This document shows positions 12,145 to 37,469 of a DNA stretch of 64,000 bases, in pieces; within the stretch, counting starts at the first letter, position 1; every line of letters begins with the position of its first letter. The DNA is from Planctomyces sp. Lineage in GTDB: Bacteria; Planctomycetota; Planctomycetia; Planctomycetales; Planctomycetaceae. The DNA lies in the NCBI GenBank assembly GCA_016795105.1, contig JAEUIH010000033.1:1-64000 (forward strand). The letters are read 5' to 3'. The notes under the pieces are model-generated. The model saw only the letters and a program-made list of their open reading frames with translations. It was not told the origin of the DNA and did not search any database. The translations under genes and the position numbers were made by a program.

Positions 12145-12341
12145 ACCGACAAATTGTCTGACAAGCCTCCCTGCGGAAAACTCATCGAGCCGCGGATTAT
12201 CCAGGTTTCTGCGTTTGCGTCAACTGAACATATCCCCATTTCATTCCGTTTCCGGTTGAATTTGGGGACGATTGCACGTTGAGGCGGTTGTCACCACAAT
12301 GGGGGCGTTCACCATCCATAACGGCTTCTGAGGCCCCGCCT

Positions 12342-20203: not shown

Positions 20204-20287
20204 TCAGCGTAGCCTGGGCATCTCTGTCCGAGCAGGCCAGTGCCAGGAGGCAGGGTTCGGCATCACGGCGGGGCGTGATGAGTACAC

Positions 20288-21502: not shown

Positions 21503-21507
21503 GCTCT

Positions 21508-22251: not shown

Positions 22252-23244
22252 GTGTTGCGGCTGCTTCAACCAACGGATGACTGGACGCGTTACGAAACAG
22301 GCACGTTGCCTTTTCCGAAGCTGTCCGACTACCTGAGAGACGAGGCTCAGGCACATGCGATCTGGCTGAACTCGGACGGTGTTGCGACGGCCCGCTGTTC
22401 ACTGTGGTGGGATCAGACACCCCGATACCAGGATTCACGCGTTGGAACCATTGGCCACTACTCCGCCAGTTCTCTCGAGACAGGAAGACGGCTGATCGAG
22501 GCATCTGAGCAAGTGCTTTCCGATCATGGATGTGGCTATGTGATTGGCCCAATGGACGGAAATACCTGGCGAAAATATCGATTTGTGATTCGAGATACCT
22601 GTGGATTTCCCCAGTTCTTTCTTGAGCCCGCGCATCCAGTCGACTGGCCTGATCATTTTCACAGCGCCGGCTATTCTGTTCTTGCAGAATACTACTCGGC
22701 CGTGTGTGAAGACCTCTCGATTCGAGACCCGCGAACGGAACGACTTCAGCAACAGTTCAAAGACGCTGGCATGAATTTTCGTTGGTTTCAGCGAGATGCC
22801 CAGGAAGACGATCTTAGGGCGATTCATCAGGTGTCTTTGGCTGCGTTTCGATCTGCATTCCTGTTTGTGCCGATCAGTTTTGAAGAATTTCAGACGCAGT
22901 TTCGCCCGCTTCTGGAACGAGTTCCGACAGACTGGATTCTGATAGCAGAACAAAACAGCCGTGTCGTTGGATTTGTCTTTGGTGTGCCGGACGCCATGGA
23001 GGCGGCGCGGGGCCATAAATCTGATACAGTGATTCTGAAATCAATTGGCTTGTATCCAGAACGAGACCTTGCCGGGCTGGGGATTCTGATGGTTCAGCAC
23101 TTTCACGATGTCGTACGGGAGCGGGGATTTCACAGAGTGATCCACGCGATGGTGCATTCAGAAAATGCTGCCGCGAACAATATTTCCTCACGCTATACGC
23201 ATCCTTTCCGGACCTATGGCTTGTTTGGGCGCAAGTTGTCGTGA
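22252..23244 (+). CDS. GNAT family N-acetyltransferase
   Basis: 330 residues starting at a GTG. The C-terminal half (from about residue 160) has GNAT features: WILIAEQNSRVVGFVFG (strands 3-4), the acetyl-CoA loop region LYPERDLAGLGILMVQHF and HRVIHAMVHSENAAANNISS. The N-terminal half is a second, less conserved GNAT-like lobe. It transfers an acyl group from acyl-CoA to an amine, substrate unknown. It overlaps the start of the adenylate-forming enzyme by four bases (GTGA), a clear sign of coupling. The context makes an N-acylation step in the neighbouring pathway possible, which is inference. Confidence 0.85.
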   Translation: MLRLLQPTDDWTRYETGTLPFPKLSDYLRDEAQAHAIWLNSDGVATARCSLWWDQTPRYQDSRVGTIGHYSASSLETGRRLIEASEQVLSDHGCGYVIGPMDGNTWRKYRFVIRDTCGFPQFFLEPAHPVDWPDHFHSAGYSVLAEYYSAVCEDLSIRDPRTERLQQQFKDAGMNFRWFQRDAQEDDLRAIHQVSLAAFRSAFLFVPISFEEFQTQFRPLLERVPTDWILIAEQNSRVVGFVFGVPDAMEAARGHKSDTVILKSIGLYPERDLAGLGILMVQHFHDVVRERGFHRVIHAMVHSENAAANNISSRYTHPFRTYGLFGRKLS

Positions 23245-24857
23245 GCAATATCAGTGAACTTCTCGACCTCGTGGCTAACGAGATTCCTAAGTCCCCTGCA
23301 ATCACATCAAGGCGTCGTGGACTGGATGAAACACTCAGCTTCCGAAGACTTCAGGAGTGCGTCTGCTGCGAAGCTCTCCGGCTCAGAAAACTGGGGCTTC
23401 GGCCCGGAAACCGGATCCTGGTGATGTGCTCTCCCGGGATGAGACTCTATATCTCAGTGCTCGCGATTTTTCGGATTGGAGCCACGGCCGTCTTTGTTGA
23501 TCCCGGTGCAGGGCTGAAACGTTTGAATGAATGCTGTCGAGCCGCGGAGCTGACAGCAGTTCTGGCGACACCTGCTGCATGGATGCTGAGGCCGCTGGTC
23601 CCGGAGTTGAGATGGAAGCCTCGCTGGATCCGAGTTTGCAGGCGGTTCGATCGTATTGCCGACAGAGTTTCTGCCGAAGTCGTTGGAAGCGACCATTCGG
23701 CTCTGCTGACCTTCACAAGCGGCAGCACCGGAGAACCAAGAGGTGTGATTCGTTCTCACGGATTCCTGGCAATCCAGCAGGCTGCCATTGCTCGGGAATG
23801 TGAACTGCACGCTGGTGAATCGCAGTTGTTGACGATGCCCATGTTTGTTCTGTCGAATCTGGCAGCCGGGTTGCACAGTATCGTTGGCGACGTCCGCCTC
23901 AGGAAGCCACGAAATGACTCTCCGCAAAGACTGATCTCGCAGATTGAAGCCTCTCACCCATCCCGATTGCTTGTGTCTCCATCACTCCTCGACGAACTTG
24001 CCAGATACGCAATTCGGGAATCAAGGGTTCTGGCGTCAGTCCGCCGCATTACAACTGGAGGAGCTCCGGTTTTTCCTCGAACCATATTGGCCGCAAAACT
24101 TGCCATGCCAAATGCTCGAGTTGATGTTGTCTATGGTTCGACCGAAGCGGAACCCATTTCAGTGTTGAGCTGGAGTGCTGGCCAGACATGTGACTATCTG
24201 CAGACACGTGAGGGGTTTGGGCTGCCAGCCGGCAAGTTATGTGAAGATATCAGCGTGCGACTGCTGTCGACACACTGGAATCGGACTCCGGATTCCGAAG
24301 CATCTCATGATATCGGACCTCAGGTTGTTTCAGTAGAAGCATTAGATTCGCACACTCTGTCATTTCCTTGTACCGGTGAAATTGTGGTGAGTGGAGAACG
24401 AGTCTTAAAGGGGTATCTAAACTCCGCTGGAGATCGCGAATCAAAGATTCGAGTGGGGGAACGCATATGGCATCGAACGGGAGATGTTGGACGATTCGAT
24501 GAACATGGACGCCTGTGGTTGCTCGGGCGACTGGCAGGTCGAGTCTGTGACCGTCGCGGCTCGCTGGAAGCGTTTCGAGTGGAGGCAGCCGCAATGGAGC
24601 ACGCGAATGTCCGTCGTTGTGCACTCACCGCAATCGCCGGGCGACGTGTTCTGATCGTTGAGGCAGCCGGAAGAGAACCCAACTCCAGGTCCGAATGGAA
24701 GTCCAACCTCATGAAGCAGCTCGCATGGGCTGAACTTGATGAAGTGAAAGAGGTTCGACGAATACCGCTGGATCGACGACATCACGCAAAGGTCGACTAC
24801 CCTGCACTTCGGGCGCTTGTTGGTGCTGACCCTGAAGGAAAAGATCGGATGACCTGA
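23241..24857 (+). CDS. AMP-dependent synthetase/ligase, OleC (beta-lactone synthetase)-like
   Basis: 538-residue adenylate-forming enzyme. The ATP-binding motif is LTFTSGSTGEPRGVIRSHG, followed by VYGSTEAEP and the hinge-region HRTGDVGRFDEHGRLWLLGR. Several segments match the OleC subgroup rather than classic acyl-CoA ligases: RIGATAVFVDPGAG, GRLAGRVCDRRGSLEAFRVE and the end RIPLDRRHHAKVDYPALR. OleC enzymes activate beta-hydroxy acids and form beta-lactones on the way to long-chain olefins; however oleA, oleB and oleD are absent here, so the product may differ. The start overlaps the GNAT gene by four bases. The 3' end overlaps the convergent dikinase gene by 61 bases. Confidence 0.88.
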   Translation: MSNISELLDLVANEIPKSPAITSRRRGLDETLSFRRLQECVCCEALRLRKLGLRPGNRILVMCSPGMRLYISVLAIFRIGATAVFVDPGAGLKRLNECCRAAELTAVLATPAAWMLRPLVPELRWKPRWIRVCRRFDRIADRVSAEVVGSDHSALLTFTSGSTGEPRGVIRSHGFLAIQQAAIARECELHAGESQLLTMPMFVLSNLAAGLHSIVGDVRLRKPRNDSPQRLISQIEASHPSRLLVSPSLLDELARYAIRESRVLASVRRITTGGAPVFPRTILAAKLAMPNARVDVVYGSTEAEPISVLSWSAGQTCDYLQTREGFGLPAGKLCEDISVRLLSTHWNRTPDSEASHDIGPQVVSVEALDSHTLSFPCTGEIVVSGERVLKGYLNSAGDRESKIRVGERIWHRTGDVGRFDEHGRLWLLGRLAGRVCDRRGSLEAFRVEAAAMEHANVRRCALTAIAGRRVLIVEAAGREPNSRSEWKSNLMKQLAWAELDEVKEVRRIPLDRRHHAKVDYPALRALVGADPEGKDRMT

Positions 24858-27343
24858 ACTGTGCCACTGGAGCCGTTCATTTCAATCAGATCACCATCAC
24901 TGATGCGATCCATCAGTCCTTTAATTCCTACAATCGTAGGGATACTCATTTCACGAGCCAGCGTCGCAGAATGCGACAAGACACTGCCGCGCTGAACCAG
25001 CACACCGGCAGCACCGGGAAATAACATCACCCAGCCCGGGTCCGTTCGCTCTGCAACGAGGATTCGCCCCGGTTCCGGTTGAACGGTCGCGGGTGATGTC
25101 ACTCGCATCGCAATTCCCCGCACAATTCCCGGGTAACAACCAAGCCCATGCAGCTGTGACTCGGCGGCAGACGTCACACCCGAGAAGGAAAGATTGTCAT
25201 TCAGCAGGACTGCTCCTCTGGTTTCGAATCGTTCCGGAGGAGGCGCGAGTTTTCGAAATTCATCGAAGGCCTGCTTTCTAACCAACGCAAGCTGATTCAG
25301 ACTGGCACAGGTTGCACCTCCTTCGACGAAGTTCAGAATTTCGTTGATCTCCAGGTAGAATACGTCGTCTGCAGATTCGAGATGTCCTGCCTGAACAAGC
25401 TGCTCGCCCATCCCAACAACAATTCGACGTACGCGCCCGAAGACCCGAGTTCGCTGAAATCGAAGATTCTCGCGGAGCACCAGATGATATCGTGCCCCGC
25501 GAATCAGTCGTTTCAGGATCAGAGATCTGACTGGGTGTCCCTTGACTGCATCAAACACACTGGAACTGTCTGTCGGAACCTCCGATGCCGATCGAGCGAC
25601 TGTTTCGCCGGGTTCTGACTGTCGCTGTGCCGACCTGCCGATGGCTCGCCACAGAACTCCTGGTGTTTCGTGCAGAGTAACGGTTTCCAGTTTGAGTTCT
25701 TCCATGCAGCGATCACCGAAATCACTCAGATAACGATTCAGCTCAGAATTCAGGGTTGCATTGTGTTGAAGATATTCAGCGACGGTGTTTGGATCGGCTT
25801 CGCAAAGAATGCGAATGCCATGCGGATCTCCGGAAAGCAAACGTCCCATTTCCTCGATTCGTCGCGCGGGCTCAATGCTCAGCATTCCGGATGTCCCCCC
25901 CAATAGTGGACCGATCTTTGACCAGCCATCCGGACCGACCCAGCGGTCAACGACCTTCCGCAGCACTCCGAAACAAACCATTGTGAAGAAGTCGTTGACG
26001 AGTGGTGCGTCCCAGCGATTCAACAGTGCCTTTTCAAGTCGACGATATTCGGCTGTCAGCTGATCGAGTCCCATTTCATCGAGCTGGTCCGTCGTCTGAT
26101 TCAGGGAGGCGTCGATGCGAGCGTCAAATCGTCGAGACATGGTGTCGAGTTTGCGATAACTGAGTGCAAGTCGGAGAAAGCTGTGCACAAATTGAATTCG
26201 ATCACTGAGACGCCCGGTCCATCCCACTTTTTCGATACCCTGAAGAACGTCATCGGGCATGGACTCCCGGACCCCCATCATCTGTTCCATGAATTTCCGG
26301 TTTGACGCATAACCAGGCAACAATGCGATGAGCCGATACCAGCTGAACAGGTTGTAGTAGACTCTCCCTCGAAACATTCCCAGCATCTGTGCGAACAGAT
26401 CATTGTTGGCGCTCAGACGTTCCTTTGGGACACGCATCATGTGACAGAAGGCTCGATAGACGCCTTCGTAAACGGAACGCGCAAACGAAAACGTCAATGG
26501 AGTTGTCATTCCACCGAAGCTCTCTGAGATATTGGCATTGTCCCAAACGCGGCGAATTCCGTTGCGATGATTGGTGTCGGTGCCTTTGTGCCTGGAATCG
26601 TGTATCGAAGCAGATGGTTTTGTCAGCGTGGTGATTGGGCGTGACTGCAATACCCAGAGAACATCACTTTCAATGGCCCATTCAACATCCTGTGGGCATC
26701 CGAGCAGAGTCTCAGCATTGGCAGTTAATCGAACGATTTCGTGGATTTGTTTTAAGGTCAGAAGCGGAGATTCAGTGGATTCAGCTGACACTCGCACAGA
26801 ACCCTCGCGGTCGACGTACCATGTCTGACCGTCTTCAGCTCCATCGACCAGCGCATGACCGAGACCACCGATGGCAGAAATGACCATGACCGAACCGTCT
26901 CCAGTTATGGGGTCAACACTGAAGGCGACTCCGCTGACTGTTGGGGTCAACATGCGCTGGACAACCACGGCGCAGTCCTGTGTTGGGCCGTTCAGTCCTC
27001 TGAATGATCTGTATTTTTGAACCGGCTCGCTGTGGGCGGAGGCTCGAACCGATCGAACGCTCCTTTCTAGGTTCTGCGAATTGACGTTGAGGCAGGTCGT
27101 GAGAAGGCCGGCAAATGAAGACATCGAACTGTCTTCTTCGATTGATGAAGAGCGTACTGCAAATTGCTGGCCCTGAGTCCACTGTTGTTGATCTAAAACG
27201 GACTTGCACGCTAAAGCGACGTCTGCGTCAGGTAGAATCACGGCAAACGGAGGAACGGGAAATCCGGCCGACAGCAATTTCTGCAGCGATGCCGCCTTGC
27301 CTCCGCACGTCGGCCCGATCTTTGATTCCTGTACGTTTGACAC
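24797..27343 (-). CDS. PEP-synthase/rifampin-phosphotransferase-like dikinase (copy 2)
   Basis: 848 residues with the three-part plan of phosphoenolpyruvate synthase-like dikinases. The N-terminal ATP-grasp domain has FAVRSSSIEEDSSMSSFAG, VSGVAFSVDPITGDG and QDVEWAIESDVLWVLQSRP. A large central domain (about 260-730) is unlike PEP synthase and should define the substrate. The C-terminal swivelling domain has the phosphohistidine His791 in SVLSHSATLAREMSIPTIVG. The PEP-synthase pyruvate-binding barrel is not recognisable, so it more probably phosphorylates a small molecule, as rifampin phosphotransferase does. It is the last gene of the eight-gene minus operon, 18 bases after the UbiA gene, and its end overlaps the convergent OleC-like gene. 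It is a paralogue of the gene at 32630-34822. Confidence 0.88.
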   Translation of the reverse strand: MSNVQESKIGPTCGGKAASLQKLLSAGFPVPPFAVILPDADVALACKSVLDQQQWTQGQQFAVRSSSIEEDSSMSSFAGLLTTCLNVNSQNLERSVRSVRASAHSEPVQKYRSFRGLNGPTQDCAVVVQRMLTPTVSGVAFSVDPITGDGSVMVISAIGGLGHALVDGAEDGQTWYVDREGSVRVSAESTESPLLTLKQIHEIVRLTANAETLLGCPQDVEWAIESDVLWVLQSRPITTLTKPSASIHDSRHKGTDTNHRNGIRRVWDNANISESFGGMTTPLTFSFARSVYEGVYRAFCHMMRVPKERLSANNDLFAQMLGMFRGRVYYNLFSWYRLIALLPGYASNRKFMEQMMGVRESMPDDVLQGIEKVGWTGRLSDRIQFVHSFLRLALSYRKLDTMSRRFDARIDASLNQTTDQLDEMGLDQLTAEYRRLEKALLNRWDAPLVNDFFTMVCFGVLRKVVDRWVGPDGWSKIGPLLGGTSGMLSIEPARRIEEMGRLLSGDPHGIRILCEADPNTVAEYLQHNATLNSELNRYLSDFGDRCMEELKLETVTLHETPGVLWRAIGRSAQRQSEPGETVARSASEVPTDSSSVFDAVKGHPVRSLILKRLIRGARYHLVLRENLRFQRTRVFGRVRRIVVGMGEQLVQAGHLESADDVFYLEINEILNFVEGGATCASLNQLALVRKQAFDEFRKLAPPPERFETRGAVLLNDNLSFSGVTSAAESQLHGLGCYPGIVRGIAMRVTSPATVQPEPGRILVAERTDPGWVMLFPGAAGVLVQRGSVLSHSATLAREMSIPTIVGIKGLMDRISDGDLIEMNGSSGTVQVIRSFPSGSAPTSARSAG

Positions 27344-27361
27344 CAGTCAATTGCTCCTTAT

Positions 27362-28345
27362 TCAGTTGCCGGTCCGGACAAACCACGGCAGAACTCTGAA
27401 CCAGGGAAGAATCCCCAGACCAAGGTACAGGCTGAGTGTCCAGAGAAACGTTGTGAGCTCAAGGCTTCTGCCCGCGAGTCTCGTCTTCCGTAACAGAAAC
27501 TGCCGTCCCAAAACTGCTGCGGCGATGAGCAGCAGAACATAAATCAGACCCAGCAGCGGCAGTGCTTTCAGGTAACCGGCGGTAAAAAGTCCGCAGATCA
27601 TCGACAACAACAACTGGCTCCACCAAACCACAACAGCTCGAGTCTGTCCCCACAACCCGGAGTACGTTTGAACTCCGATCTCTTCCTGTTCCGGATGTCG
27701 AATCTTTCTTCCAATTTCGAGGCTCATGCCGTTGAAGAAACTTGCCGCGAGAAACCACATTAGTGCCGGATGAAATCCACTTTCATGAAGGAACCAGTCT
27801 GTTCCGGTTGCATAGAGGTCGACGAGGGGCATGATCAGCATATGGCTGATCAGATATAGAATCGGCCGCTGCTTCAAATATTCGCGGACAAAGAACTCAC
27901 GACTCATCAGGCCCAGATAAATCCACACAAGTCCGAGCAGGATCACGAGACGAGGCGACAACCAGAGTGCGAGAATCAGCTGAATGACGGCTGCCACAAC
28001 AAACATCCAGCCAAGTCCTCTCAGTGTCACGAGTCCCCGTGGGACAGCTCGATACGGACGGTACTTCGAATCTTCTTCAAAGTCCTTAAACTCGTCGGCC
28101 ACTCGCAGTTGAAAGAAGATCAATGTACATGTCACGAATGCCACTACGAACGAGAGGAAAGGAAAGACCAGGGCCCCTCGAATTCGTACAGAGATCGCGA
28201 CTGCACAAAACGTGAATGCCGCGATGAGAGGACCATGAGCCGCCAGCGGAAAGCGTTCCTTCTGATAGGTCCACCAGCGAGTCCAGGGGCGCAGAGGTCC
28301 GGAGTGATCAACAGTGGTCGAATTCGAATGCAAATCGCGACTCAA
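27362..28345 (-). CDS. UbiA family prenyltransferase-like membrane protein
   Basis: 327 residues with about eight or nine membrane helices. The first acidic motif of the UbiA superfamily is present as LRVADEFKDFEED (loop after helix 2) followed by YRPYRAVPRGL. The second acidic motif is replaced by the SLEIGRKIRHPEQEE sequence seen in a UbiA subfamily. UbiA enzymes move prenyl groups from prenyl diphosphates onto acceptors in the membrane; the donor and acceptor here are unknown. Its start overlaps the P450 stop by four bases (ATGA), so the two are translationally coupled. In this cluster it could make or attach an isoprenoid part. Confidence 0.86.
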   Translation of the reverse strand: MSRDLHSNSTTVDHSGPLRPWTRWWTYQKERFPLAAHGPLIAAFTFCAVAISVRIRGALVFPFLSFVVAFVTCTLIFFQLRVADEFKDFEEDSKYRPYRAVPRGLVTLRGLGWMFVVAAVIQLILALWLSPRLVILLGLVWIYLGLMSREFFVREYLKQRPILYLISHMLIMPLVDLYATGTDWFLHESGFHPALMWFLAASFFNGMSLEIGRKIRHPEQEEIGVQTYSGLWGQTRAVVVWWSQLLLSMICGLFTAGYLKALPLLGLIYVLLLIAAAVLGRQFLLRKTRLAGRSLELTTFLWTLSLYLGLGILPWFRVLPWFVRTGN

Positions 28346-29733
28346 AGAGCTGCCTCCAGCCGGCCCGATGCGGGGCTTCGAAATGATTCAACCGTCATCT
28401 TCAGGCCGTTTTTGCAGCGCAGCGTAATTCCCGGATTCATTTGCACAGAGTGCCCCGGAATAGTGCGAAGTCGAAATCTTCCGGAGATCATCGTGGCAAT
28501 GACGAGGGCCTCCAGACGTGCAAGATTTCTGCCGACACAGAAACGATCACCGCCGCCAAACGGAATGTAAGCGCCCGAATGCATCGTGCTGACCTTGTCA
28601 GGATCAAACCGCGAAGGATCAAACTGATCGGGATTGATCCAGAACTGAGGATGCCTGTGCGTGACGTAGGGACTGATAATTGCCAGTGAATCCTTTGGAA
28701 TTTCGTAACCACCGATTTCGTCCGAGTGCACAACCCGACGAAAAATCGCCCAGATCGGTGTATACAACCTCATCGTTTCCTGCAGTACGAGATTTGTCCA
28801 GGTCAGTGACTTCAGGCTGTCTTTCGTGATGCTGGATGAGTTTCCGGTCGCACAGGCTTCCTTATGCATTTTCTCTGCAGCGTCAGGGTGCTGATCCAGC
28901 AGGTGCCAGAGCCATGTGAGAGAGTTGGCCGTCGTTTCGTGACCAGCGAGCAGTAACGTAATCGCCTGACTCTTCACGGTATCTTGATTTCCATCGGCTG
29001 CCGTTCCGTCCATCATGTCACTCAAAAGATCATGATACTTTCCAATTTGTCTGTGTTCGCGAATGATTTCATCGACCTTGCGATGAATGGTTCGGATGGC
29101 ACGTCTCAGTCGCAGATTCGCGGGCGTCGGAATTGCGGCTGGCAGGCTGAAAGGGTGTTCAATTCTACGATACGCATCCATCATTGCGACTGTAACTGCT
29201 TCCTCAATTTCACCGAGTTCTTCGCCCGTTTCGGTGCTGAAGAGAGCCTGTTCAATGATTCCATAAGTCAATCGCATCATTTCTGATGCGATATCGATTG
29301 ACTGACCCGTGTCGCAGATGGCTTCCCACCGGTCCAGCATTCGCTGAGTTCTTTCGACGATCATCCCCAGATAACTATCGACACGAGCTTGTGTGAACCC
29401 CGCCTGAACTGCGATTCGCTGAGCGCGCCATTCCTGGCCGTTGCTGACCAGAAGCCCATTGCCGGTAACGCTGCGAATTCGGGCTGAAGCGAATGTCTGC
29501 TTGTCGTAAGAGGCTGTCTTCTGAAAGACGTGCAGAATATCATCCGGATGGCAAATCAGATGGACGGTCCATGGCCCGATTCGATATCGAACAACATCGC
29601 CGTAATCGTGCATTCCCCGGAGCATCAGTTCCAGAACATCACGCCGCATTTCGGGAAGATTGCCGATCAAAGGCCAGCCTCTCGGCCCCGGAGCACGATG
29701 TTTGTGTGGAGCAGCATGGGACTTCATGCACAA
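28342..29733 (-). CDS. Cytochrome P450
   Basis: 463-residue P450 monooxygenase with all signature elements: I-helix AGHETTANSLTW, K-helix ETMRLYTPIW (ExxR), and the heme loop FGGGDRFCVGRNLARLEA with Cys399 as axial ligand. The N-terminus PGPRGWPLIGNLPEM is proline-rich and has no clear membrane anchor, as in bacterial P450s. It oxidises an unactivated carbon using O2 and an electron-transfer partner that is not encoded nearby. It overlaps the sulfotransferase gene by 10 bases upstream and the UbiA gene by four downstream. A hydroxyl it installs could be the acceptor for sulfation. Confidence 0.95.
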   Translation of the reverse strand: MCMKSHAAPHKHRAPGPRGWPLIGNLPEMRRDVLELMLRGMHDYGDVVRYRIGPWTVHLICHPDDILHVFQKTASYDKQTFASARIRSVTGNGLLVSNGQEWRAQRIAVQAGFTQARVDSYLGMIVERTQRMLDRWEAICDTGQSIDIASEMMRLTYGIIEQALFSTETGEELGEIEEAVTVAMMDAYRRIEHPFSLPAAIPTPANLRLRRAIRTIHRKVDEIIREHRQIGKYHDLLSDMMDGTAADGNQDTVKSQAITLLLAGHETTANSLTWLWHLLDQHPDAAEKMHKEACATGNSSSITKDSLKSLTWTNLVLQETMRLYTPIWAIFRRVVHSDEIGGYEIPKDSLAIISPYVTHRHPQFWINPDQFDPSRFDPDKVSTMHSGAYIPFGGGDRFCVGRNLARLEALVIATMISGRFRLRTIPGHSVQMNPGITLRCKNGLKMTVESFRSPASGRLEAAL

Positions 29734-30851
29734 TACTCCGTCGAATAACCGAATTCATCGAAGAACGGCTTCCAGTGTTCGTTCACGTGTAGTATCTCGT
29801 GCTGAGTCAGAGGACGATGCTGATTCTTTCGATAGCCGGAGAGTGTTGAGAGATAGTCGCGAACGGCGGGTGCCACGACGGAGAAATCGCCAATCTCGAG
29901 TGAGTCGTAAAGGTGTTCCATCGAGTCGAGAGGTTTCTCGCTCAGGTCATCGAATGAGAGTTCAACGAGTCGACCGGAGGGGATGAGTGACCGTTGTTCA
30001 AGATAGGCGTCGTACAGGATTCGGTACCTTCGCAAAATCGCCGCGTCGAACTGTGATGCGTCGATCTTCTGCAGATTGGCAAACCACGCAGCTGTCTGAA
30101 AATAGTGTCGTGACGACTGAAACACGGTAAACGGGTTTCGATGAATGTGTATGAATCGTGCATCGGGAAAGAGTTCCAGCAGGAGCTTGATTCTTCCGGT
30201 ATGTGCCGGAGACTTAAATACAATTCGCCGCTGATCTCGCAGACTGAGTTTTGCAGTAAAAGTCCGAAACGCAGACTTCCAGCGACTGACGACGGACTCC
30301 TCGACACCCCCGAACGTGATGAAGCGTTCGTATTCGACCGTTCGTTTTGGAAACGACAATCCGATGTACGGACTTAGTCCGCACAGCAGCGAGAGCGCCA
30401 GTTCATCTTCCTGAGGAGCATCAAAGCTCATCGCCATTTCATCCATCGGACGTCGAGAGGGAAGAAATGGACGAAAGACGGTTGGCAGGATCCACTCTGT
30501 TGAGAGGAACGATGACGGGTTAACAGCCTGAAACGTGTTTGGAGCCGTCAGTTGTCCGTCAAGGGACAACAAATTGTGAAGATGAGTCGTTCCACTTCTC
30601 CAGTGGCCCAGTACAAACACCGGATCCGATCGTACGGACACATCCCTGAGTGATCCACCATAGCGCAGTCGTTCACAGGCCGAACACGCAGAATTGAAAA
30701 GACTCATCAGGCTGATGAACGCTGCGCGATGCAGATAGCAAGAGTCAACATCGAAGCCGTTCTCACGCAGGAGTCTGCACCAGAGGCCAAAGGTGAGTCC
30801 TGAGAGCGGATTGTGTTCAAGAGACCATCGATGAGGAATTTCGGTGGTCAT
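29724..30851 (-). CDS. Sulfotransferase family protein
   Basis: 375 residues. The PAPS-binding 5'-phosphosulfate loop is GHWRSGTTH at residues 82-90, and the 3'-phosphate region is FIHIHRNPFTVFQSSRHYF. Enzymes of this family move a sulfuryl group from PAPS to an alcohol or amine. Length and motif order are normal. It shares 10 bases with the P450 gene downstream and starts 21 bases after the SnoaL-like gene. The acceptor is unknown; the neighbourhood suggests a hydroxylated lipid-like substrate, which is inference. Confidence 0.9.
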   Translation of the reverse strand: MTTEIPHRWSLEHNPLSGLTFGLWCRLLRENGFDVDSCYLHRAAFISLMSLFNSACSACERLRYGGSLRDVSVRSDPVFVLGHWRSGTTHLHNLLSLDGQLTAPNTFQAVNPSSFLSTEWILPTVFRPFLPSRRPMDEMAMSFDAPQEDELALSLLCGLSPYIGLSFPKRTVEYERFITFGGVEESVVSRWKSAFRTFTAKLSLRDQRRIVFKSPAHTGRIKLLLELFPDARFIHIHRNPFTVFQSSRHYFQTAAWFANLQKIDASQFDAAILRRYRILYDAYLEQRSLIPSGRLVELSFDDLSEKPLDSMEHLYDSLEIGDFSVVAPAVRDYLSTLSGYRKNQHRPLTQHEILHVNEHWKPFFDEFGYSTEYCA

Positions 30852-30872
30852 GAGGAAAAGCTCCCTGTTCGT

Positions 30873-31511
30873 TCAGGATGCATTGGCAGCAGGCTTGCGA
30901 CCTGAGCGGCGGCCCAACAGAAAACCAACAATAAGACCAACCGCGGCAGCTGCGATTCCGGCAATTAACGCTCCGCTTTTCGCTGCGGAGAGGAGTGGGT
31001 TGTCGGCCAGATTTCCTGAAACGTGATAACCAACAAGTTTCCACTGGTCGTTATCCTTCAGCAGAGTTGCGGTCCAGGTGTTTGGCAATTCGAACTTCAA
31101 TCCATAAATTTCATATCGGGCCACTGAGGTACCGTGTGCGAAACCAAATCGCCCGTCGAAGATTCGCGTAGGAGCCAGCGGAGTCGGCTCCTGAGTATAG
31201 CCAACGAATCCCCGTTCTTCGTTTGTTCCCATCGATTCAAAAAACTGTTTGAGTCCATCCGGATGACTGACAATTCGATTGTCCTGCCAAACGGTCACGA
31301 TTTCCGGATGTACGAGTGACAACTGAGTGTCGACGTCATTCTCGATTACGGCGGCTACCAACTTCTTTCTGAACTCGGTGAGTGCCTCATGATCAGCCGA
31401 TACCTGATCCGCTGCTGACTGATCAGACGCCGCCTGCTCCTGAGCCTGAAGAGTGATTGAGCACAAGGTGAAGACGGCTGCACCAAAAACATGATGTACG
31501 AACTTCTGCAT
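30873..31511 (-). CDS. Membrane-anchored SnoaL/NTF2-like protein
   Basis: 212 residues: a Sec signal peptide (VFGAAVFTLCSITLQAQ), an NTF2/SnoaL-like domain (about 35-165; FRKKLVAAVIENDVDTQLSL, GTSVARYEIYGLKFEL, WKLVGYHVSG) and a C-terminal membrane helix (GALIAGIAAAAVGLIVGFLL) followed by an Arg/Lys-rich tail GRRSGRKP. NTF2-like domains often bind or isomerise small hydrophobic molecules. The tethered exported form is unusual for a biosynthetic cluster protein. It lies 16 bases after the BtaA-like gene and 21 before the sulfotransferase. Function unknown. Confidence 0.82.
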   Translation of the reverse strand: MQKFVHHVFGAAVFTLCSITLQAQEQAASDQSAADQVSADHEALTEFRKKLVAAVIENDVDTQLSLVHPEIVTVWQDNRIVSHPDGLKQFFESMGTNEERGFVGYTQEPTPLAPTRIFDGRFGFAHGTSVARYEIYGLKFELPNTWTATLLKDNDQWKLVGYHVSGNLADNPLLSAAKSGALIAGIAAAAVGLIVGFLLGRRSGRKPAANAS

Positions 31512-31527
31512 AGCGAAACCTTACCTT

Positions 31528-32637
31528 TCAGGAAACCAGTTCGTCGATAACAAAGTCACAGTAAAAGAAGGCCTGATCGATGGCGTGGAGCCTTGTCGCG
31601 TCGGCCTGCAGGGGCCTGACCTGATTCACAAAGTCGGCTGCACATCGCCGCGGAACCAGCGTATTCCAGTAGACACAGCGGGCATTGGGCTGCCCAGCAG
31701 AGATCAGAGTACCGTAGACGTCCCGAGAAGTCTCCGGATCAAGATACTCAAAGATGTCTGACAGGTTGAAGCCATTGAATCCATGGTCGCGAAAATTCAG
31801 TGCGGCCTCATCAATCGAGCCATGGAAGATGGTTAGCCGATCGATACCGTCGCGAATCGCTTCGAAGTTCTCCGGGCGGAGATACCTTGGGAGGTTGTCT
31901 CCAAAGTTTCCTGTCAGGATATACGTTAGATATGGATTGCTGTGTGTGGGGACTTCGCGAAGTCCGTGTCGAACTCGTGACAGAAGTCGACTTCCAACGC
32001 TGCCTTCCACATATCGCATGAATTCAGGGTCCCTCCCGACATGGCCAAGCATCAGTCTTCCGAAGAAAATCCTGAAGATGAACTGCCATCGCCAGTTGTT
32101 CCAGGTACGGTCGTAGAACTCCCGCTGTTGTTCAGGCGACTTCTTCAAAAGCAGCTGTTCCACGATCTTTCGGCGATGAATCATTGGAAGAACTCGTCGT
32201 CGGAACAGCCGAAAGTAGCTTTCAAAGCGTCCGCAGTGAATAACGCCACTCTGAATGTTCTGTGGATTTAAACTCCAGTGCTGCCGTGAAGGTTCAGAAA
32301 GATCGTATTCAATTCGCGCGTACAATCGTCCGCGATCTGGACACGTTCGAACACCCAGCAGTTCAAGTAGTTCCGAGTAAGTCAGTCGACGAAATCCGGC
32401 TGCTCGCAGTTCAAGGCACGCAAGTTGAGTCGCATTCAGATCCGCGGCAACAACGGATGCTCCTTCGCCGAGCAGTGCCAGCGAGTTATCTCCGGCGGAG
32501 GAGATTGAGAGAATCCGATCGCCAGGTCGAGGTTGCATCGCGGCGCAAAGCACGTCAGCATCTTCCCAGCAGTTCGCATACCGAACGCTGTCGAACTTCG
32601 CTCTCTTTTCAATTGAAGATTGATGCTGGTCAGCCAT
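31528..32637 (-). CDS. DUF3419 / BtaA-like S-adenosylmethionine aminocarboxypropyl transferase
   Basis: 369 residues from the ATG at 32637, chosen because it overlaps the upstream dikinase stop by eight bases; the frame continues to 32700. The SAM-binding segment is RYANCWEDADVL followed by ISSAGDNSLALLGEGASVVA and ADLNATQLACLELRAAGF, the pattern of BtaA/DUF3419. BtaA transfers the 3-amino-3-carboxypropyl group of SAM to diacylglycerol to start betaine-lipid synthesis. No btaB-type methyltransferase is near, so a different acceptor or an unmethylated homoserine ether is possible. The family call is strong; the substrate is inferred only. Confidence 0.87.
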   Translation of the reverse strand: MADQHQSSIEKRAKFDSVRYANCWEDADVLCAAMQPRPGDRILSISSAGDNSLALLGEGASVVAADLNATQLACLELRAAGFRRLTYSELLELLGVRTCPDRGRLYARIEYDLSEPSRQHWSLNPQNIQSGVIHCGRFESYFRLFRRRVLPMIHRRKIVEQLLLKKSPEQQREFYDRTWNNWRWQFIFRIFFGRLMLGHVGRDPEFMRYVEGSVGSRLLSRVRHGLREVPTHSNPYLTYILTGNFGDNLPRYLRPENFEAIRDGIDRLTIFHGSIDEAALNFRDHGFNGFNLSDIFEYLDPETSRDVYGTLISAGQPNARCVYWNTLVPRRCAADFVNQVRPLQADATRLHAIDQAFFYCDFVIDELVS

Positions 32638-34822
32638 GTGCAGATTCGCTGAGATATCCTGGTTCTTGCGACAGAATGCGAACTTCGCCTCGATGGCCAT
32701 CGACTTCGATCAGAGCACCATCCGGGATCCGAACCGCCGCATGCTTGACTCCGAGTACCGTCGGCAGGCCAAATTCCCGACAGATCACCGCAGCATGTGA
32801 CAGAAGTCCTCCCGTTTCCGTGACGACTCCGGCAACACGTTCAAGGGCACACGTCCAGCCGGGGTCAATGAAGGGGCACACGATGATCACGTTGTGATCA
32901 AGGTGAGACACTTCGTCGGCGGTTCTGACGATGCGAGCGACACCTCGGCTCACTCCACGTCCGGCGGCGATTCCTCTGAGTACATTCGCAGTAGGCATCT
33001 CTGTCTCGCTGGTCTGGCTCGTCGGTCCAATTTCATTGGGAGCCGCAAAGTTGCGAAACCGTTCGTATGTGTCTCTGCGAAGTGCGGTCTGAGAACGATC
33101 ATCCTCCTCAATTTCATTCACCGTCATAAAGAAGATGTCGTCTCCGATGTGGCGCTGACCCGCCATCTCAAGCGTACATCGGCGGATCAAATAGTACATC
33201 CGGCTTGAACAATCTCGCATCTCCTCTCTGTAGAATAGAAACGTCCGAAGTCTGTCGAGTTTCCGAATGAAGGATGCACGTTTACTGCGAGGCAAAGCAG
33301 CGAGGTGGCTTTCGCGAGCATTTTCGAAATCGCCGGAACTTCGTCTGCGATCTGCAGGAATATCACTCGTTTCAAACAGTCGTCTGACATAATCCGGTTG
33401 TTCGTCCCAGCGGGGATGAATCACATCGAGGCCGGACGGCTGATGATGTCGAAAATCGTGCAGCAACTGGCGAATCGCTGCTTCCGGGTCACCTCCCAGC
33501 ATGCGAAGTGCGTGGATCCGTTTGAGTGGTTCAAGATGCCGGAGTGGCCCAATGCCAGCGACCAGTGAGACCTCATCCGCATCAGGAAAGGCATCTTTGA
33601 AGTCCAGCTTCGCGAGGGACGCAGCAAAGATCGTTCTGAAGTACAAAACCTCTGTGTCCCAATAGTCTTCCCGCATCAAATGCCGGAACATTTGTGTACC
33701 GACGCGAAACTGCTGTTCGCATGCTCGAATTCGGTTTTCAAATCTCCCATTCAGAAATTCCTGAACCCGCAGGTGCTGTTGTCGAAAGAACTTTCTGAGC
33801 GCCCATGCGGTGGGGATGGCTTTCAGGATGGTCTTCAGATTAACTGGTGTCCTGAGGCCATCGCCGTCATACAGAGGAGTCACGCTGAGATCTTCATCAA
33901 AGCGTCGCTCAACAAATCCCGGAATCCTGGTCAGGCATTGCTTTACGGCCCCAAGATTCCAGTATGGGCGACCAAAGAACATTCGAGCAGGTTCAAATGT
34001 GGCACCTCGACCAAGTAGATGAATCTCCCTCAACAGACCGAGCAGCGATGTTTCCCAGACTCGTTCGTACAAAGACCACATCAGTGGAGAACAAACGGAT
34101 GCTGAAACTCCGCCATCGCGAAAATCCGCGTTTGTCCATGTCCCGCTGTCCGTCTGGTAGTGAATCCTTGTCACAGGGCGAGACTGCAGCAACCAGAGTT
34201 GATCTTCGTCTGCGGCGAATTCAATATCCTGAGGAGCCCCGAAATGACGCTGAACATTTCGGGCCAGCTGCTCAATCTCCGGACGCCATCTCAACAACAA
34301 TGGATGATCCTGATCGAGAGGTTCTGTATGCCCGGAGAGAAGTCGATCCCCTGTACCCTCTGATGCTTCGATCACCACGCGATCATCGCCAGTAAGTGGG
34401 TCAATGGAGAACGCTACACCAGAGACTGATGCGCTGACCATCTTCTGGACGATGACCTGCATGGACTCCGTCGGGGCGTCGATTCGATGTCGCAGGCGAT
34501 AGTCGTGAACCGCCGGGGAATTGATGGATGCGTGACATGCTTCAATCGCACTACAGAGTTCGTCGGCATTGGCAACATTCAGGACACTGCGAAACATCCC
34601 GGCGAAAGAAGTCGTTGCCCCGTCTTCGTTCGGTGCACAGGAACGAACAGCCACCGGAAAGCCAAGTCGTTGGATCGTCTCCGTCAGATTTGCAGGAGAG
34701 ACTTCGAATTCAGGAACCGGGAAACCTGCAAACGCAAGCTCCTGCAATACCCTTGCCTTGGCACCAATCACAGGCCGTTTATCTGGCAGGGGCATATTCT
34801 CGAGTTTAGTTGCCTGTTGCAT
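32630..34822 (-). CDS. PEP-synthase/rifampin-phosphotransferase-like dikinase (copy 1)
   Basis: 730 residues with the same plan as the 848-residue paralogue: ATP-grasp (VAVRSCAPNEDGATTSFAG, VSGVAFSIDPLTGDDRVVIE, PQDIEFAADEDQLWLLQSRP), a divergent central domain (about 230-620) and the C-terminal phosphohistidine domain with His676 in GGLLSHAAVICREFGLPTVL. It is shorter than its paralogue, mainly in the middle. It overlaps the aminotransferase/reductase stop by 17 bases and the BtaA-like start by eight. Two such enzymes in one operon suggest two ATP-driven phosphorylations or activations, or a pair acting on related substrates. The substrate is unknown. Confidence 0.88.
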   Translation of the reverse strand: MQQATKLENMPLPDKRPVIGAKARVLQELAFAGFPVPEFEVSPANLTETIQRLGFPVAVRSCAPNEDGATTSFAGMFRSVLNVANADELCSAIEACHASINSPAVHDYRLRHRIDAPTESMQVIVQKMVSASVSGVAFSIDPLTGDDRVVIEASEGTGDRLLSGHTEPLDQDHPLLLRWRPEIEQLARNVQRHFGAPQDIEFAADEDQLWLLQSRPVTRIHYQTDSGTWTNADFRDGGVSASVCSPLMWSLYERVWETSLLGLLREIHLLGRGATFEPARMFFGRPYWNLGAVKQCLTRIPGFVERRFDEDLSVTPLYDGDGLRTPVNLKTILKAIPTAWALRKFFRQQHLRVQEFLNGRFENRIRACEQQFRVGTQMFRHLMREDYWDTEVLYFRTIFAASLAKLDFKDAFPDADEVSLVAGIGPLRHLEPLKRIHALRMLGGDPEAAIRQLLHDFRHHQPSGLDVIHPRWDEQPDYVRRLFETSDIPADRRRSSGDFENARESHLAALPRSKRASFIRKLDRLRTFLFYREEMRDCSSRMYYLIRRCTLEMAGQRHIGDDIFFMTVNEIEEDDRSQTALRRDTYERFRNFAAPNEIGPTSQTSETEMPTANVLRGIAAGRGVSRGVARIVRTADEVSHLDHNVIIVCPFIDPGWTCALERVAGVVTETGGLLSHAAVICREFGLPTVLGVKHAAVRIPDGALIEVDGHRGEVRILSQEPGYLSESAHG

Positions 34823-37469
34823 TCTGCAGCTCCCGAGCTCGAGTCCCCAGAACGCATTCTTCTTTAAATCGAGTCATTCTGAAGCCGTGTTTCTGACCCA
34901 GTGCTTCCAGGAGATGCACGTGGTCGGGTTGAAGCTTGCCGATGAATCGATGGTCCGTGATATTTTCAAATCCAAGCAGCAAAGCTTCTCCCATGCATCC
35001 GTAGACTTCTCCTGCCTCCAGCGGGAACCCAACAATTCCGAGGTCCTCTCCGGAAGGAAGGCGAGCAATTCCGCCCTGTATAACGGGGTTTGCCGCCAGT
35101 TCATTCAGATTTGACGCCTGTGCCGAAAATACTGTCGGTACAGAAAGGTCACAGAGGACCGCATTAGATGCAAAAAGGCGGCGATCGAACGGACGGTCAA
35201 CGGCATTTGCGGCGGCCAGTACGACCTGTGCATTGCTCAGTTCTTTGAGATCGCGCGCGATCGATGAACGAGGAATCGAGCCTGCCAGCTTTTGAAGCCG
35301 TTCCTCTGAGCCAGGACGATCGCTGCCAACGAGCAAAGTTCGTGCAAACAGAGGTGCGAGTATTCGAGCGGCCGTTTCGCCGATGTTGCCGGCAGCTCCA
35401 ATGACGGCACAGGTCGTCACGGTGGAGTCAATCTGACGATCCAGCATTGATTTTCGAATGGCCTCGAGTGCCAGAGCCAGCGCGTAGGTGTTGCCGGTAC
35501 ACAATCCCATCCCATGGCCGTTTGCCCTCAGTCCGGCTGATGTGACGATCGATGTATACTGCCCCAAAGCGGTAAGACTACAGCCAAGGTGATGCGCCAG
35601 ATCGAGTCCCTTCTGGACGAGTGAGACAGCGGTCTTTGCAGCTCCCTGCTCCATGCAGCGTTTCATCCAGGCGGAAGTGACGGGCAGCAATATTGGATAG
35701 AGCCAAACAGAGTCACCAGTCGCAGATTCGATGCGTACCTCGGAGAGTATGGCTGGATTTGCAAGAGGAGACAGACGGTGCAACAGGAATTCTCTGTCAT
35801 CCGCCGCAACCCGAACAAACGATGGGTCCAGTCGTGCAAGATCGGTGTTGTCGATCATGTGACACAGCCATCCGATATGCCGCTCAGACCTGGAGTGTGG
35901 CATTAACATCGGACGATCACTGAAGATCTGAAATCCACTGCGAATCGTCGCTGGAGCTCTCATTTCAGTTCGACTTTCTTCGCCACCATCAGGACTCACG
36001 ATAAAAGTCGATGAATCAGAGGAATGAGAGGTAAGAACGAGATGAGATGAGAGTTCCGGTGCAGCCGCTTCCCGAATCAATTGACACAGATTTCGAAACG
36101 CCTGCAGAGTCTGCTCAATCGAAGCTTCATCGCTGATTGCAGCAGGCTGAATTCGAATGGTGTTCGGGCAACTGAGCGTAGTTGCAACTCGGATACGATG
36201 ATTTTGAAAAAGGTATCCGGCGGCAAGAATCCCTAAATCCTCCGTTGCCGAAAGCATTCGCAGCAGAAAGCTCGGGGATGATGTCAATGGACGAAGCTCA
36301 ATCGCCAGCATCAGCCCCTCACCCCGAACATCAGCAATGATATCCGGATAGCTGATCAGCAGGGACTCAAGTGCCGTCTTCCATTGTTGCCCCAGCTGGC
36401 AAACGGACTTCAGGAATGAGTCGCTCACCAGATCCAGGACTCGTGATGCAACTCGGCAGGAAAGTTCATCACCACCGAATGTGCTGGTGTGTTTCAGATC
36501 CATTTCATCGCGGTACCGCGATCTGCGAACCGCGAGAGCCGCAATTTTTACAAGACCACCGCCGAGGGCTTTGGAAAAGATGATGTAGTCCGGCTGAACA
36601 CCGAGGCGCTCACACGCGAGAAATGTGCCGGTGCGGCCAAGGCCAGTCTGACATTCATCAGCAATCATGGGAATTCGATACTGACGGCACAGTTCGGCGG
36701 CTCGCAGTGCGAATTCCTTCGTCATCAGATGAACACCACCCTCTCCCTGAACCGGCTCAAAGAGGAATCCGGCCAGCCTCGGTGCGAATGCCAATGGCTG
36801 GTCACATCTCTGTTGAAAAGAGCCGTCAGATGCAGTGGAGCAAAACTCTGAGAACACATGTTCGAGGTGCTGTATGTCATTGAGTCGCACTCGACGAACC
36901 TGCGTCAGATGGACTCCAAGTTCTTCAAACGGTTCACGATGAGTCACATGGCTGGCAAGTCCAATGGTAGCGAGCGACTTACCGTGAAACCCGCCTTCCA
37001 GTGTGATAAACGTGTTTCCTTCGGTCTCCAGCATCGCATGCTTCATTGCCGACTCAACCGCTTCTGCGCCCGTGCTGGAGAAGACAACATGGCATGGTTC
37101 GCCAATTCGCTGTGCCAGCTGTTCTGCAAACATCTCCGATGCGGATCGCAGTGAGCCCTGAGTGTGAATAGGGCCACATTCAGAGAGAAACTGGATCATC
37201 GTGTTCCTGAGTTCCGGATGATTGTGGCCCAATAGCAGAGTGCCATAACCACCGACAAGATCCTGGACCTCGACTTCCTCTCCGGTAGCGCTGATGTAAT
37301 AGAGTTTGTCTGCCAATGCGCGACAATAGGAGACATCAAGACCTGCAGCGTGCAGATATGCCTTGAGTTTTGGGGCCGAAGTGGCAGTCAGGTCCTGCTT
37401 GACATTCAATGGCGACGCCTGCAGTCCATGCTTTGTTCTGACCATATAATTCTGACCATTCCGGGCCAT
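34806..37469 (-). CDS. Class III aminotransferase fused to acyl-ACP-reductase-like domain
   Basis: 887 residues. Residues about 1-455 are a class III PLP aminotransferase: GYGTLLLGHNHPEL, VVFSSTGAEAVESAMKHAM, MIADECQTGLGRTG and Lys300 in IIFSKALGGGL binding PLP. After a linker (about 456-520), the C-terminal domain resembles the cyanobacterial long-chain acyl-ACP reductase AAR: ALGQYTSIVTSAG, CTGNTYALAL, the NAD(P) motif VIGAAGNIGETAARIL (about 690) and Cys825 in VYGCMGEALLLGFEN, equivalent to the AAR catalytic Cys. The end EALGQKHGFRM also fits AAR. A plausible reaction is reduction of an acyl thioester to an aldehyde, then transamination to an amine, as in PigE/TamH-type enzymes. It heads the minus operon. 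Confidence 0.88.
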   Translation of the reverse strand: MARNGQNYMVRTKHGLQASPLNVKQDLTATSAPKLKAYLHAAGLDVSYCRALADKLYYISATGEEVEVQDLVGGYGTLLLGHNHPELRNTMIQFLSECGPIHTQGSLRSASEMFAEQLAQRIGEPCHVVFSSTGAEAVESAMKHAMLETEGNTFITLEGGFHGKSLATIGLASHVTHREPFEELGVHLTQVRRVRLNDIQHLEHVFSEFCSTASDGSFQQRCDQPLAFAPRLAGFLFEPVQGEGGVHLMTKEFALRAAELCRQYRIPMIADECQTGLGRTGTFLACERLGVQPDYIIFSKALGGGLVKIAALAVRRSRYRDEMDLKHTSTFGGDELSCRVASRVLDLVSDSFLKSVCQLGQQWKTALESLLISYPDIIADVRGEGLMLAIELRPLTSSPSFLLRMLSATEDLGILAAGYLFQNHRIRVATTLSCPNTIRIQPAAISDEASIEQTLQAFRNLCQLIREAAAPELSSHLVLTSHSSDSSTFIVSPDGGEESRTEMRAPATIRSGFQIFSDRPMLMPHSRSERHIGWLCHMIDNTDLARLDPSFVRVAADDREFLLHRLSPLANPAILSEVRIESATGDSVWLYPILLPVTSAWMKRCMEQGAAKTAVSLVQKGLDLAHHLGCSLTALGQYTSIVTSAGLRANGHGMGLCTGNTYALALALEAIRKSMLDRQIDSTVTTCAVIGAAGNIGETAARILAPLFARTLLVGSDRPGSEERLQKLAGSIPRSSIARDLKELSNAQVVLAAANAVDRPFDRRLFASNAVLCDLSVPTVFSAQASNLNELAANPVIQGGIARLPSGEDLGIVGFPLEAGEVYGCMGEALLLGFENITDHRFIGKLQPDHVHLLEALGQKHGFRMTRFKEECVLGTRARELQNATGN

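Follow-up and report, generated by a model that had tools for sequence, protein, structure and literature searches.

What would a bacterium make with a reductase-aminotransferase fusion, two PEP-synthase-like proteins, a BtaA-like protein, a P450 and a sulfotransferase encoded side by side? The question is raised by ten closely packed genes at 22252-37469 in the open reading frame (ORF) list of the window, by which we mean the whole 64,000-nucleotide stretch of Planctomyces sp. DNA analysed here. The genes resemble a biosynthetic route, so far undescribed, leading from a fatty acid to a long-chain amine and on to a decorated lipid-like molecule, and variants with exchangeable parts are found in relatives across several phyla. 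We assign a probability of roughly 0.6 to the reading that the cluster is dedicated to an amine-containing lipid, or lipid-like metabolite, that is sulfated and hydroxylated. The genes are as follows.

34806..37469, minus strand: TamH-like fusion of a class III aminotransferase and an acyl-ACP-reductase-type thioester reductase, 887 aa (Aminotran_3 1e-64; 6jzq 1.3e-8)
32630..34822, minus strand: PEPS_A, PEP-synthase-like phosphotransferase, 730 aa (PPDK_N and PEP-utilizers)
31528..32700, start possibly 32637, minus strand: DUF3419 (BtaA-like) putative 3-amino-3-carboxypropyl transferase (PF11899 1.5e-62)
30873..31511, minus strand: DUF4440/SnoaL-like protein (DUF4440 21.4 bits, under the cut-off of 25.2)
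29724..30851, minus strand: PAPS-type sulfotransferase (Sulfotransfer_3 1.1e-32; RSGTT at 85)
28342..29733, minus strand: cytochrome P450 (p450 9.9e-79)
27362..28345, minus strand: UbiA-family membrane transferase (UbiA 1.8e-14)
24797..27343, minus strand: PEPS_B, second PEP-synthase-like phosphotransferase, 848 aa (PPDK_N and PEP-utilizers)
23241..24857, plus strand: AMP-binding acyl ligase, OleC/PRK09274-like (AMP-binding 5.7e-40)
22252..23244, plus strand: GNAT-family acyltransferase, possible tandem GNAT (Acetyltransf_1 3.3e-6)

The ORFs and strands agree with the initial annotation, which had described an eight-gene minus-strand run facing a plus-strand GNAT/OleC-like pair. Pfam cut-offs were passed by Aminotran_3, PPDK_N with PEP-utilizers (twice), DUF3419, Sulfotransfer_3, p450, UbiA, Acetyltransf_1 and AMP-binding. 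The minus-strand genes are listed above in 5' to 3' order, fusion to PEPS_B, and their successive gaps are -17, -71, 16, 21, -10, -4 and 18 bases; the second value becomes -8 with the later DUF3419 start, the longest ORF beginning at 32700 and the second in-frame start (residue 22) lying at 32637. The GNAT and AMP-ligase genes converge on this run, with a tail-to-tail ORF overlap of 61 bases between AMP-ligase and PEPS_B, and the convergent pair is part of the cluster. Three more plus-strand ORFs lie at 19346-22224, with successive gaps of 84, 5 and 27 bases, the last of them before the GNAT gene; they gave no Pfam match and had no BLASTP partner among 20 clustered relative loci. Scans 5' of the fusion returned 2 promoter-like sites against 1.5 expected and 5 terminator-like sites against 1.5 expected, the latter all within the adjacent lactonase gene.

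The domain order of the fusion, class III aminotransferase and then acyl-ACP reductase, is that of TamH. The PLP lysine K300 is kept in all 21 aligned homologues and the catalytic cysteine C825, which by hand count corresponds to C294 of the acyl-ACP reductase 6jzq, in 20 of them, the remaining one having a gap. In the GxxGxxG motif G691 and G694 are kept in 21/21 and G697 in 16/21. The reductase half gave no Pfam match above cut-off and matched solved acyl-ACP reductases (6jzq, 1.3e-8). Because of the TamH domain order and the kept K300 and C825, the fusion most likely makes a fatty amine out of an acyl thioester, the role of TamH in the tambjamine pathway (PMC9594044). This supports the earlier proposal that an amine is formed from an acyl thioester and refines the reading of the fusion itself, which belongs to a known kind. 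Its best NCBIfam model was PigE (NF053554, 277.4 bits against a cut-off of 850). PigE-type fusions of reverse domain order in seven other planctomycete genomes (L041-L047) were rejected as the same system, UbiA, PEPS and CarS being found in 0/7 over stretches of 5.8 to 20 kb.

Both PEPS proteins combine PPDK_N and PEP-utilizers domains with a putative phospho-histidine, as do the PigC/RedH/TamQ condensing enzymes. The histidine is H676 in PEPS_A (kept in 14/15 aligned sequences, one gap) and H791 in PEPS_B (16/17, one gap). PEPS_B scored 246.6 against the PigC cut-off of 1300 and 292.6 against the RedH cut-off of 1350, and PEPS_A reached 178.1 and 176 with the same models. Since both proteins fall far under these cut-offs, amine coupling by PEPS is an analogy, which was counted against the preferred reading. 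Across genomes PEPS_A accompanies TamH, and PEPS_B adjoins UbiA in relatives.

The UbiA protein scored 54.1 bits against a cut-off of 34.2, and residues R81, D84, K87, D88, D92, E210, R213, K214, R216 and Y228 are kept in 19/19 sequences. Its structure model is nearest to UbiA-fold enzymes (4od5, Z 20.6, rmsd 3.2, 266 aligned), with DGGGP synthase among the best fold matches. A UbiA neighbourhood is described in a passage of PMC12419801, and the genes named there differ from those of the window. The GNAT model matched tandem-GNAT and FemX folds, matches that are weak because the model is poor (mean pLDDT 56.4). The AMP-ligase carries ligase motifs including the C-terminal AKVD and is nearest to the PRK09274/OleC group (NF006754, 324.3 bits against a cut-off of 478). 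With the OleC beta-lactone synthetase models it scored 200.8 and 187.5 against cut-offs of 900 and 850, and the OleC pathway was rejected on these values.

DUF3419 was matched at 212.5 bits against a cut-off of 28.2. The DUF4440/SnoaL-like protein has an N-terminal signal, judged by eye, and a C-terminal hydrophobic segment by hydropathy (173-191); its homologues occupy the equivalent place in the relative loci L244 and L245. The P450 has the heme motif FGGGDRFCVG at 392, AGHETT at 263 and ETMR at 319. The Pfam scan of 19 window ORFs showed no bipyrrole (MBC) core gene, BtaB-like methyltransferase, GGGP synthase or carrier protein. The lack of the last three in these ORFs was counted against the preferred reading, and a tambjamine-like bipyrrole product was rejected on the absence of the bipyrrole core genes from them. 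Profiles of CarS, CDP-alcohol transferase and PSD had no match in 17001-46000 of the window, and relatives have some of these genes.

The full complement of ten families is found again in two other planctomycete genomes, in G515 on a 17-kb contig (L245) that also holds an MFS transporter gene and in G047 across two contig-end fragments, and a third genome (G002) has a partial set. A search of planctomycetes for the same gene order had been proposed by the initial annotation, and the recurrence of the gene set supports its claim of one biosynthetic cluster; chance neighbours were rejected on the same ground. Its statement that no transporter lies inside the cluster holds for the window and does not extend to relatives, where an MFS gene lies within the clusters of L244 and L245. 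Where the TamH-type match is full-length (17 loci), a PEPS match occurs in 12 (a weak one in L068), against 0/62 in the other loci. The latter, whose match ends before fusion residue 860, are mostly actinobacterial aminotransferases and were rejected as candidates, with neither PEPS nor UbiA in any; they include L075, whose match extends to residue 729. Three of the 17 full-length loci (L054, L055, L058) were left out of the genome-level follow-up, in which 15 TamH genomes had PEPS_A in 14 and UbiA in 12. UbiA was not found in G002, G508 and G517, and TamH stands without PEPS_A in G290 and G511; these exceptions were counted against the preferred reading. Among 22 UbiA-positive genomes TamH occurs in 11, PEPS_A in 12 and both in 10 (Fisher p = 0.0019, in a test that ignores relatedness). 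Three genomes known under two handles (G191=G514, G301=G516, G184=G513) were counted once. The 23 comparison genomes all belong to the window's own family, and 20 are UbiA-negative; G001, G003 and G004 are not among the rows listed.

A system of exchangeable parts emerges in the relatives, in which the UbiA family is paired with PEPS_B, GNAT and head-group genes. The head-group genes are either DUF3419/BtaA-like or CarS-like with CDP-alcohol transferase and PS-decarboxylase; the chain module is either TamH with PEPS_A, as in the window, or an HMG-CoA-reductase homologue with a putative membrane alcohol kinase. In none of the 22 genomes compared did both chain modules occur together in strong form; HMG-CoA reductase was sought in 13 genomes only. 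Beside the core, relatives carry CarS-like, CDP-alcohol transferase, PS-decarboxylase, MMPL, DAG kinase and LolA-like genes; together with DUF3419 in the window, these genes support the lipid-like product suggested before. In a Pfam scan of 60 of 118 unassigned neighbour ORFs no family appeared in more than 2/60, and a profile of protein Y had no match in the PDB.

The window set joins TamH, PEPS_A and tailoring genes with a UbiA-PEPS_B-GNAT-AMP-ligase-DUF3419 core that elsewhere accompanies the HMG-CoA-reductase homologue. In FastTree trees of 9-23 sequences the window UbiA and PEPS_B group with the HMGR-type clade (support 1.00 each), the AMP-ligase groups with two HMGR-type copies (0.84), and DUF3419 and GNAT are weakly placed (0.50-0.88). 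Judged from these trees, the window is a mosaic in which UbiA and PEPS_B belong to the clade of the other module, with an ancestry unlike the rest. We tentatively suggest, as a possibility short of even odds, a previously undescribed bacterial lipid family in several phyla, built on the UbiA/PEP-synthase-like pair and GNAT. Its chain would come from a TamH-like fatty amine and PEPS_A, or from the HMG-CoA-reductase homologue (acting as acyl-CoA-to-alcohol reductase) and the membrane alcohol kinase, and its head from DUF3419 aminocarboxypropyl transfer or from CarS/CDP-alcohol transferase/PS-decarboxylase; the window would be a tailored, sulfated planctomycete version.

Families, kept catalytic residues, a conserved gene set and co-occurrence are observed directly, and the existence of a pathway is well supported; the structure of the product we infer. 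Each reaction is read by analogy with homologues, and the step order, the PEPS and UbiA substrates and the final structure are our guess. The AMP-ligase would activate a fatty acid, and the fusion would reduce the resulting thioester, giving an aldehyde that it would transaminate to a long-chain amine. PEPS_A may then couple the amine to a partner, using ATP through its phospho-histidine, much as PigC-type enzymes couple pyrroles. UbiA and PEPS_B might add another hydrophobic chain, drawn from a diphosphate (prenyl or other), PEPS_B providing phosphorylation. GNAT would acylate, DUF3419 would add a SAM-derived 3-amino-3-carboxypropyl head, and the P450 and sulfotransferase would decorate the product.

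A secreted, tambjamine-like alkylamine natural product (a defence metabolite) in place of a membrane lipid, in which a PEPS enzyme would join the fatty amine to a small core, either cyclic or prenylated, before hydroxylation, sulfation and export, seems to us rather unlikely. The tambjamine pathway offers the logic, with the fatty amine made by TamH and a PigC-type coupling (PMC9594044), and the P450, the sulfotransferase, the MFS gene of L244 and L245 and a patchy distribution (G001 and G003, from the same genus, gave no match) fit such a product; yet the cluster has no bipyrrole, NRPS or PKS gene, and related cores carry phospholipid-type head genes, as the window carries DUF3419. More doubtful still is a meroterpenoid or terpenoid pathway, with an isoprenoid prenylated or cyclised by UbiA and tailored by the P450 and sulfotransferase, and with the fusion contributing no more than an alkylamine side chain. 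The modelled UbiA fold would suit it, as would the best NCBIfam models of the P450, which are terpene oxygenases (260.7 against a cut-off of 700), but no prenyl-diphosphate or terpene synthase gene lies in the cluster and the UbiA-PEPS_B-GNAT pairing also occurs where the P450 gave no match. Two or more unrelated operons adjacent by accident, to which the opposite strand of GNAT and AMP-ligase and the differing ancestry of UbiA and PEPS_B might point (both were also counted against the preferred reading), are largely refuted by the synteny of the ten families in G515 and G047 and are very improbable.

The lipids of planctomycetes and of uncultured phyla are poorly known. A pathway whose chain and head modules can be exchanged would define a new class of lipids. 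It would also assign some HMG-CoA reductase homologues a probable function other than mevalonate synthesis, and two PEP-synthase-like enzymes roles in building lipids that can be tested. TamH was described for an antibiotic pigment; here its chemistry seems to supply lipid-type pathways across several phyla.

As the initial annotation had held, no described pathway with this gene combination was found in the freely licensed literature, where papers on TamH and PigE were found. The cluster resembles parts of several known systems. OleABCD olefin synthesis shares the PRK09274/OleC-type ligase; the window ligase is far under the OleC cut-offs, and OleA, OleB and OleD do not stand beside it among the scanned ORFs. 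Archaeal-type ether phospholipid synthesis shares the UbiA fold, its DGGGP synthase being among the best fold matches, and in relatives the UbiA family adjoins CarS-like, CDP-alcohol transferase and PS-decarboxylase genes, whereas the window has fatty-acid reductases and PEPS proteins instead. Betaine lipid synthesis shares the BtaA family (1.5e-62), and the remaining window genes are foreign to the BtaA/BtaB pathway. PigE of the prodigiosin pathway has both domains of the fusion in reversed order. The PtTamA/PtTamH tambjamine system of Pseudoalteromonas tunicata differs in its bipyrrole genes, which the window lacks; the window has UbiA, DUF3419, sulfotransferase and GNAT in addition, its PEPS proteins are far under the PigC/RedH cut-offs, and its OleC-like AMP-ligase gave no match to an ACP domain. 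The two clusters nevertheless share the fusion order with its catalytic Lys and Cys and an AMP-ligase, and the PEPS-type proteins of the window have the fold of PigC-type condensing enzymes.

The ten genes at 22252-37469 form part of a real and conserved biosynthetic system whose entry enzyme is of the TamH type. The initial annotation knew of no described pathway with this combination; our searches of an open-licence library found none, and the system is, as far as these searches show, undescribed. All ten ORFs were found, with the strands and spacing it had given, and nine of the ten families pass the Pfam cut-off, whereas the DUF4440/SnoaL-like protein scores under its own. Its claim that no transporter lies inside agrees with a profile scan, in which MFS had no match in the window stretch. 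The GC content of the ten genes is 0.517-0.549, compared to 0.533 for the whole window, which is contig C266 in an assembly of 8.9 Mb. In this assembly the fusion has one full-length match and five more that are limited to the aminotransferase half.

The fusion and other features of the window are as follows.

34806-37469 (-): TamH-like fusion (P0001) of class III aminotransferase and acyl-ACP-reductase-type domain, 887 aa
37583-38878 (-): gene of the lactonase beta-propeller type, with a TAT-signal match; it lies 113 bases upstream of the fusion, possibly on one transcript with it
19346-22224 (+): three ORFs closely preceding the GNAT gene, none with a Pfam match; a lipase-like GHSHAG motif was noted by eye in the second
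12279-17318 (+): ORF of 1679 aa with GDSL lipase, DUF7133, PA14, plastocyanin-type and cytochrome c matches

The fusion was scanned against genome contigs of 84,980 species, and the best 80 of 266 matches gave 79 loci. Among the matches listed, the match reaches at least residue 860 (both domains) in 17 of the 79 loci. BLASTP with 13 window proteins gave, again among the matches listed, matches to a PEP-synthase-like protein (PEPS) in 12 of the 17, counting a weak one in L068 (23% identity), and in none of the 62 loci without a full-length fusion match. Longer stretches of relatives were examined by profile scans. In the MAG Planctomycetales HKST-UBA38 (G515, stretch L245), one strand carries TamH, PEPS_A, DUF4440, sulfotransferase, P450, MFS, GNAT, AMP-ligase, UbiA and PEPS_B, and DUF3419 converges on the remaining genes; in G047 this set is spread over L036 and L244, both fragments at contig ends. 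In the window's genus, G002 has TamH, sulfotransferase and P450 on L037, PEPS_A on fragment L257, and PEPS_B with DUF3419 on L262. The search in other planctomycetes that had been proposed returned the whole set in two genomes and part of it in a third. G001 and G003, of the same genus, gave no fusion match at 1e-30, no PEPS match at 1e-50 and no reductase-profile match at 1e-15. Since the set recurs in relatives, the ten genes are one set with patchy distribution. A sulfatase gene (L244 13128-14642, -) adjoins the sulfotransferase-bearing cluster of G047.

Across genomes, PEPS_A (>540 bits) was present in 14 and UbiA in 12 of 15 TamH genomes, namely the window's own and 14 of the 17 full-length loci. 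The UbiA family occurs in 22 of 392 phylum genomes (window's own not counted), of which 11 have a TamH-type reductase (>200 bits), 12 have PEPS_A and 10 have both. Membrane protein Y is strong (E < 1e-50) in 7 of the 22, and neither PEPS_A nor TamH occurs in any of these seven. As the compared genomes are related, the p-values are indicative only: 0.0019 for TamH with PEPS_A (Fisher), and 0.0007 and 0.0039 for PEPS_A and TamH against strong Y. For remote homologues of Y the exclusion is incomplete, given weak matches (2e-12 to 3e-10) in four other UbiA-positive genomes (G211, G290, G304, G317) and stronger ones in three TamH genomes outside the 22 (G512, 3e-36; G511, 3e-33; G517, 9e-19). Genome searches gave a PEPS match above 300 bits in 18 of the 22; in G254 PEPS was found by the PEPS_B profile, G412 has a contig-edge fragment only (174 bits), and matches are weak in G389 and G452 (182 and 179 bits). 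Among 23 family-mates of the window, 20 of them shown to be UbiA-negative, none has PEPS above 300 bits (184-197 bits in six) or a strong TamH-type reductase; reductase-profile scores of 71 and 98 bits in G028 and G040 stem from reverse-order fusions.

A related operon without the fusion holds GNAT, AMP-ligase, an HMG-CoA-reductase (HMGR) homologue, UbiA, PEPS_B, DUF3419 and protein Y. It is whole in L158, L161 and L163, and a contig end interrupts it in L159 and L165. The expected motifs are present in the HMGR homologues, of which the two scanned score 346 and 355 Pfam bits. HMG-CoA synthase had no match in the five genomes with this operon (86-99% complete), so these homologues may act on something other than HMG-CoA and were probably recruited for another acyl-CoA. 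Protein Y passes no Pfam cut-off, its best match being DUF92 (0.077); reading it by eye, we take it to be related to phytol/dolichol kinases. At other loci, the same core is adjoined by genes for CarS-like, CDP-alcohol transferase, PS-decarboxylase and MMPL proteins; these loci belong to MAGs that bear the labels Gemmatimonadetes, Alteromonadaceae, Halobacteriovorax and Planctomycetota. DAG kinase and LolA-like genes are also core neighbours in relatives. By profile scan, 19 of the 29 stretches with UbiA also carry PEPS_B, and 20 carry GNAT.

The ancestry of the window's genes is mosaic. Its UbiA is 47-52% identical to the HMGR-type copies, compared to 36% and 31% to those of the syntenic relatives G047 and G515, and its PEPS_B 40-42%, compared to 35%. 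The trees place UbiA within the HMGR-type clade and PEPS_B next to it (support 1.00), although the PEPS_B of G002, a congener, clusters with those of G047 and G515. DUF3419 and GNAT have bit scores nearer the syntenic relatives, the AMP-ligase shows little difference (37% vs 36-40%), and for TamH and PEPS_A the nearest genome is G301. The most parsimonious interpretation is a paired exchange of UbiA and PEPS_B. It suggests that they act jointly, in a step common to both module types.

The product is most likely an amine-containing lipid. The AMP-ligase would activate an acid and the fusion would reduce and then transaminate it, predictions grounded in families and residues. PEPS_A may couple the amine, by analogy to PigC-type ligases; both PEPS proteins score far under PigC-type cut-offs. 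In UbiA, a first motif that is acidic and a second that is basic are kept. The folds closest to its model (mean pLDDT 74.7) are those of UbiA homologues, an archaeal DGGGP synthase and a mycobacterial phosphoribosyltransferase, with Z from 20.6 down to 17.9, rmsd from 3.2 up to 4.4 and 263-278 residues aligned; these matches do not fix donor or acceptor. DUF3419, by the function of BtaA, suggests an aminocarboxypropyl head. An ornithine/DAP-type decarboxylase gene near DUF3419 in a Methylomirabilota MAG (L050 10660-12351, +) could decarboxylate such a head. Co-substrate motifs are present in the sulfotransferase and P450.

The first part of the fusion matches Aminotran_3 (1e-64, Pfam), and K300 occupies the PLP-lysine position, kept in 21 of 21 aligned homologues. 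The second part has matches among long-chain acyl-ACP reductases of solved structure (6jzq, 1.3e-8). By hand count, C825 corresponds to C294 in 6jzq; it is kept in 20 of the 21, the remaining one having a gap. At L039 6157-13418 and L040 9545-16518, TamH-order fusions lie beside very long ORFs (1366-1448 aa) that match AMP-ligase and may be their acid-activating partners. Reverse-order (PigE-type) fusions occur in seven planctomycete genomes (L041-L047), with no UbiA or PEPS nearby. According to PMC9594044, PtTamH converts C7-C14 aldehydes to amines and, coupled with PtTamA, fatty acids to amines; the fusion shares the domain order and chemistry reported there. PigE, whose domains run in the reverse order, is likewise reported as a thioester reducer in PMC8341465.
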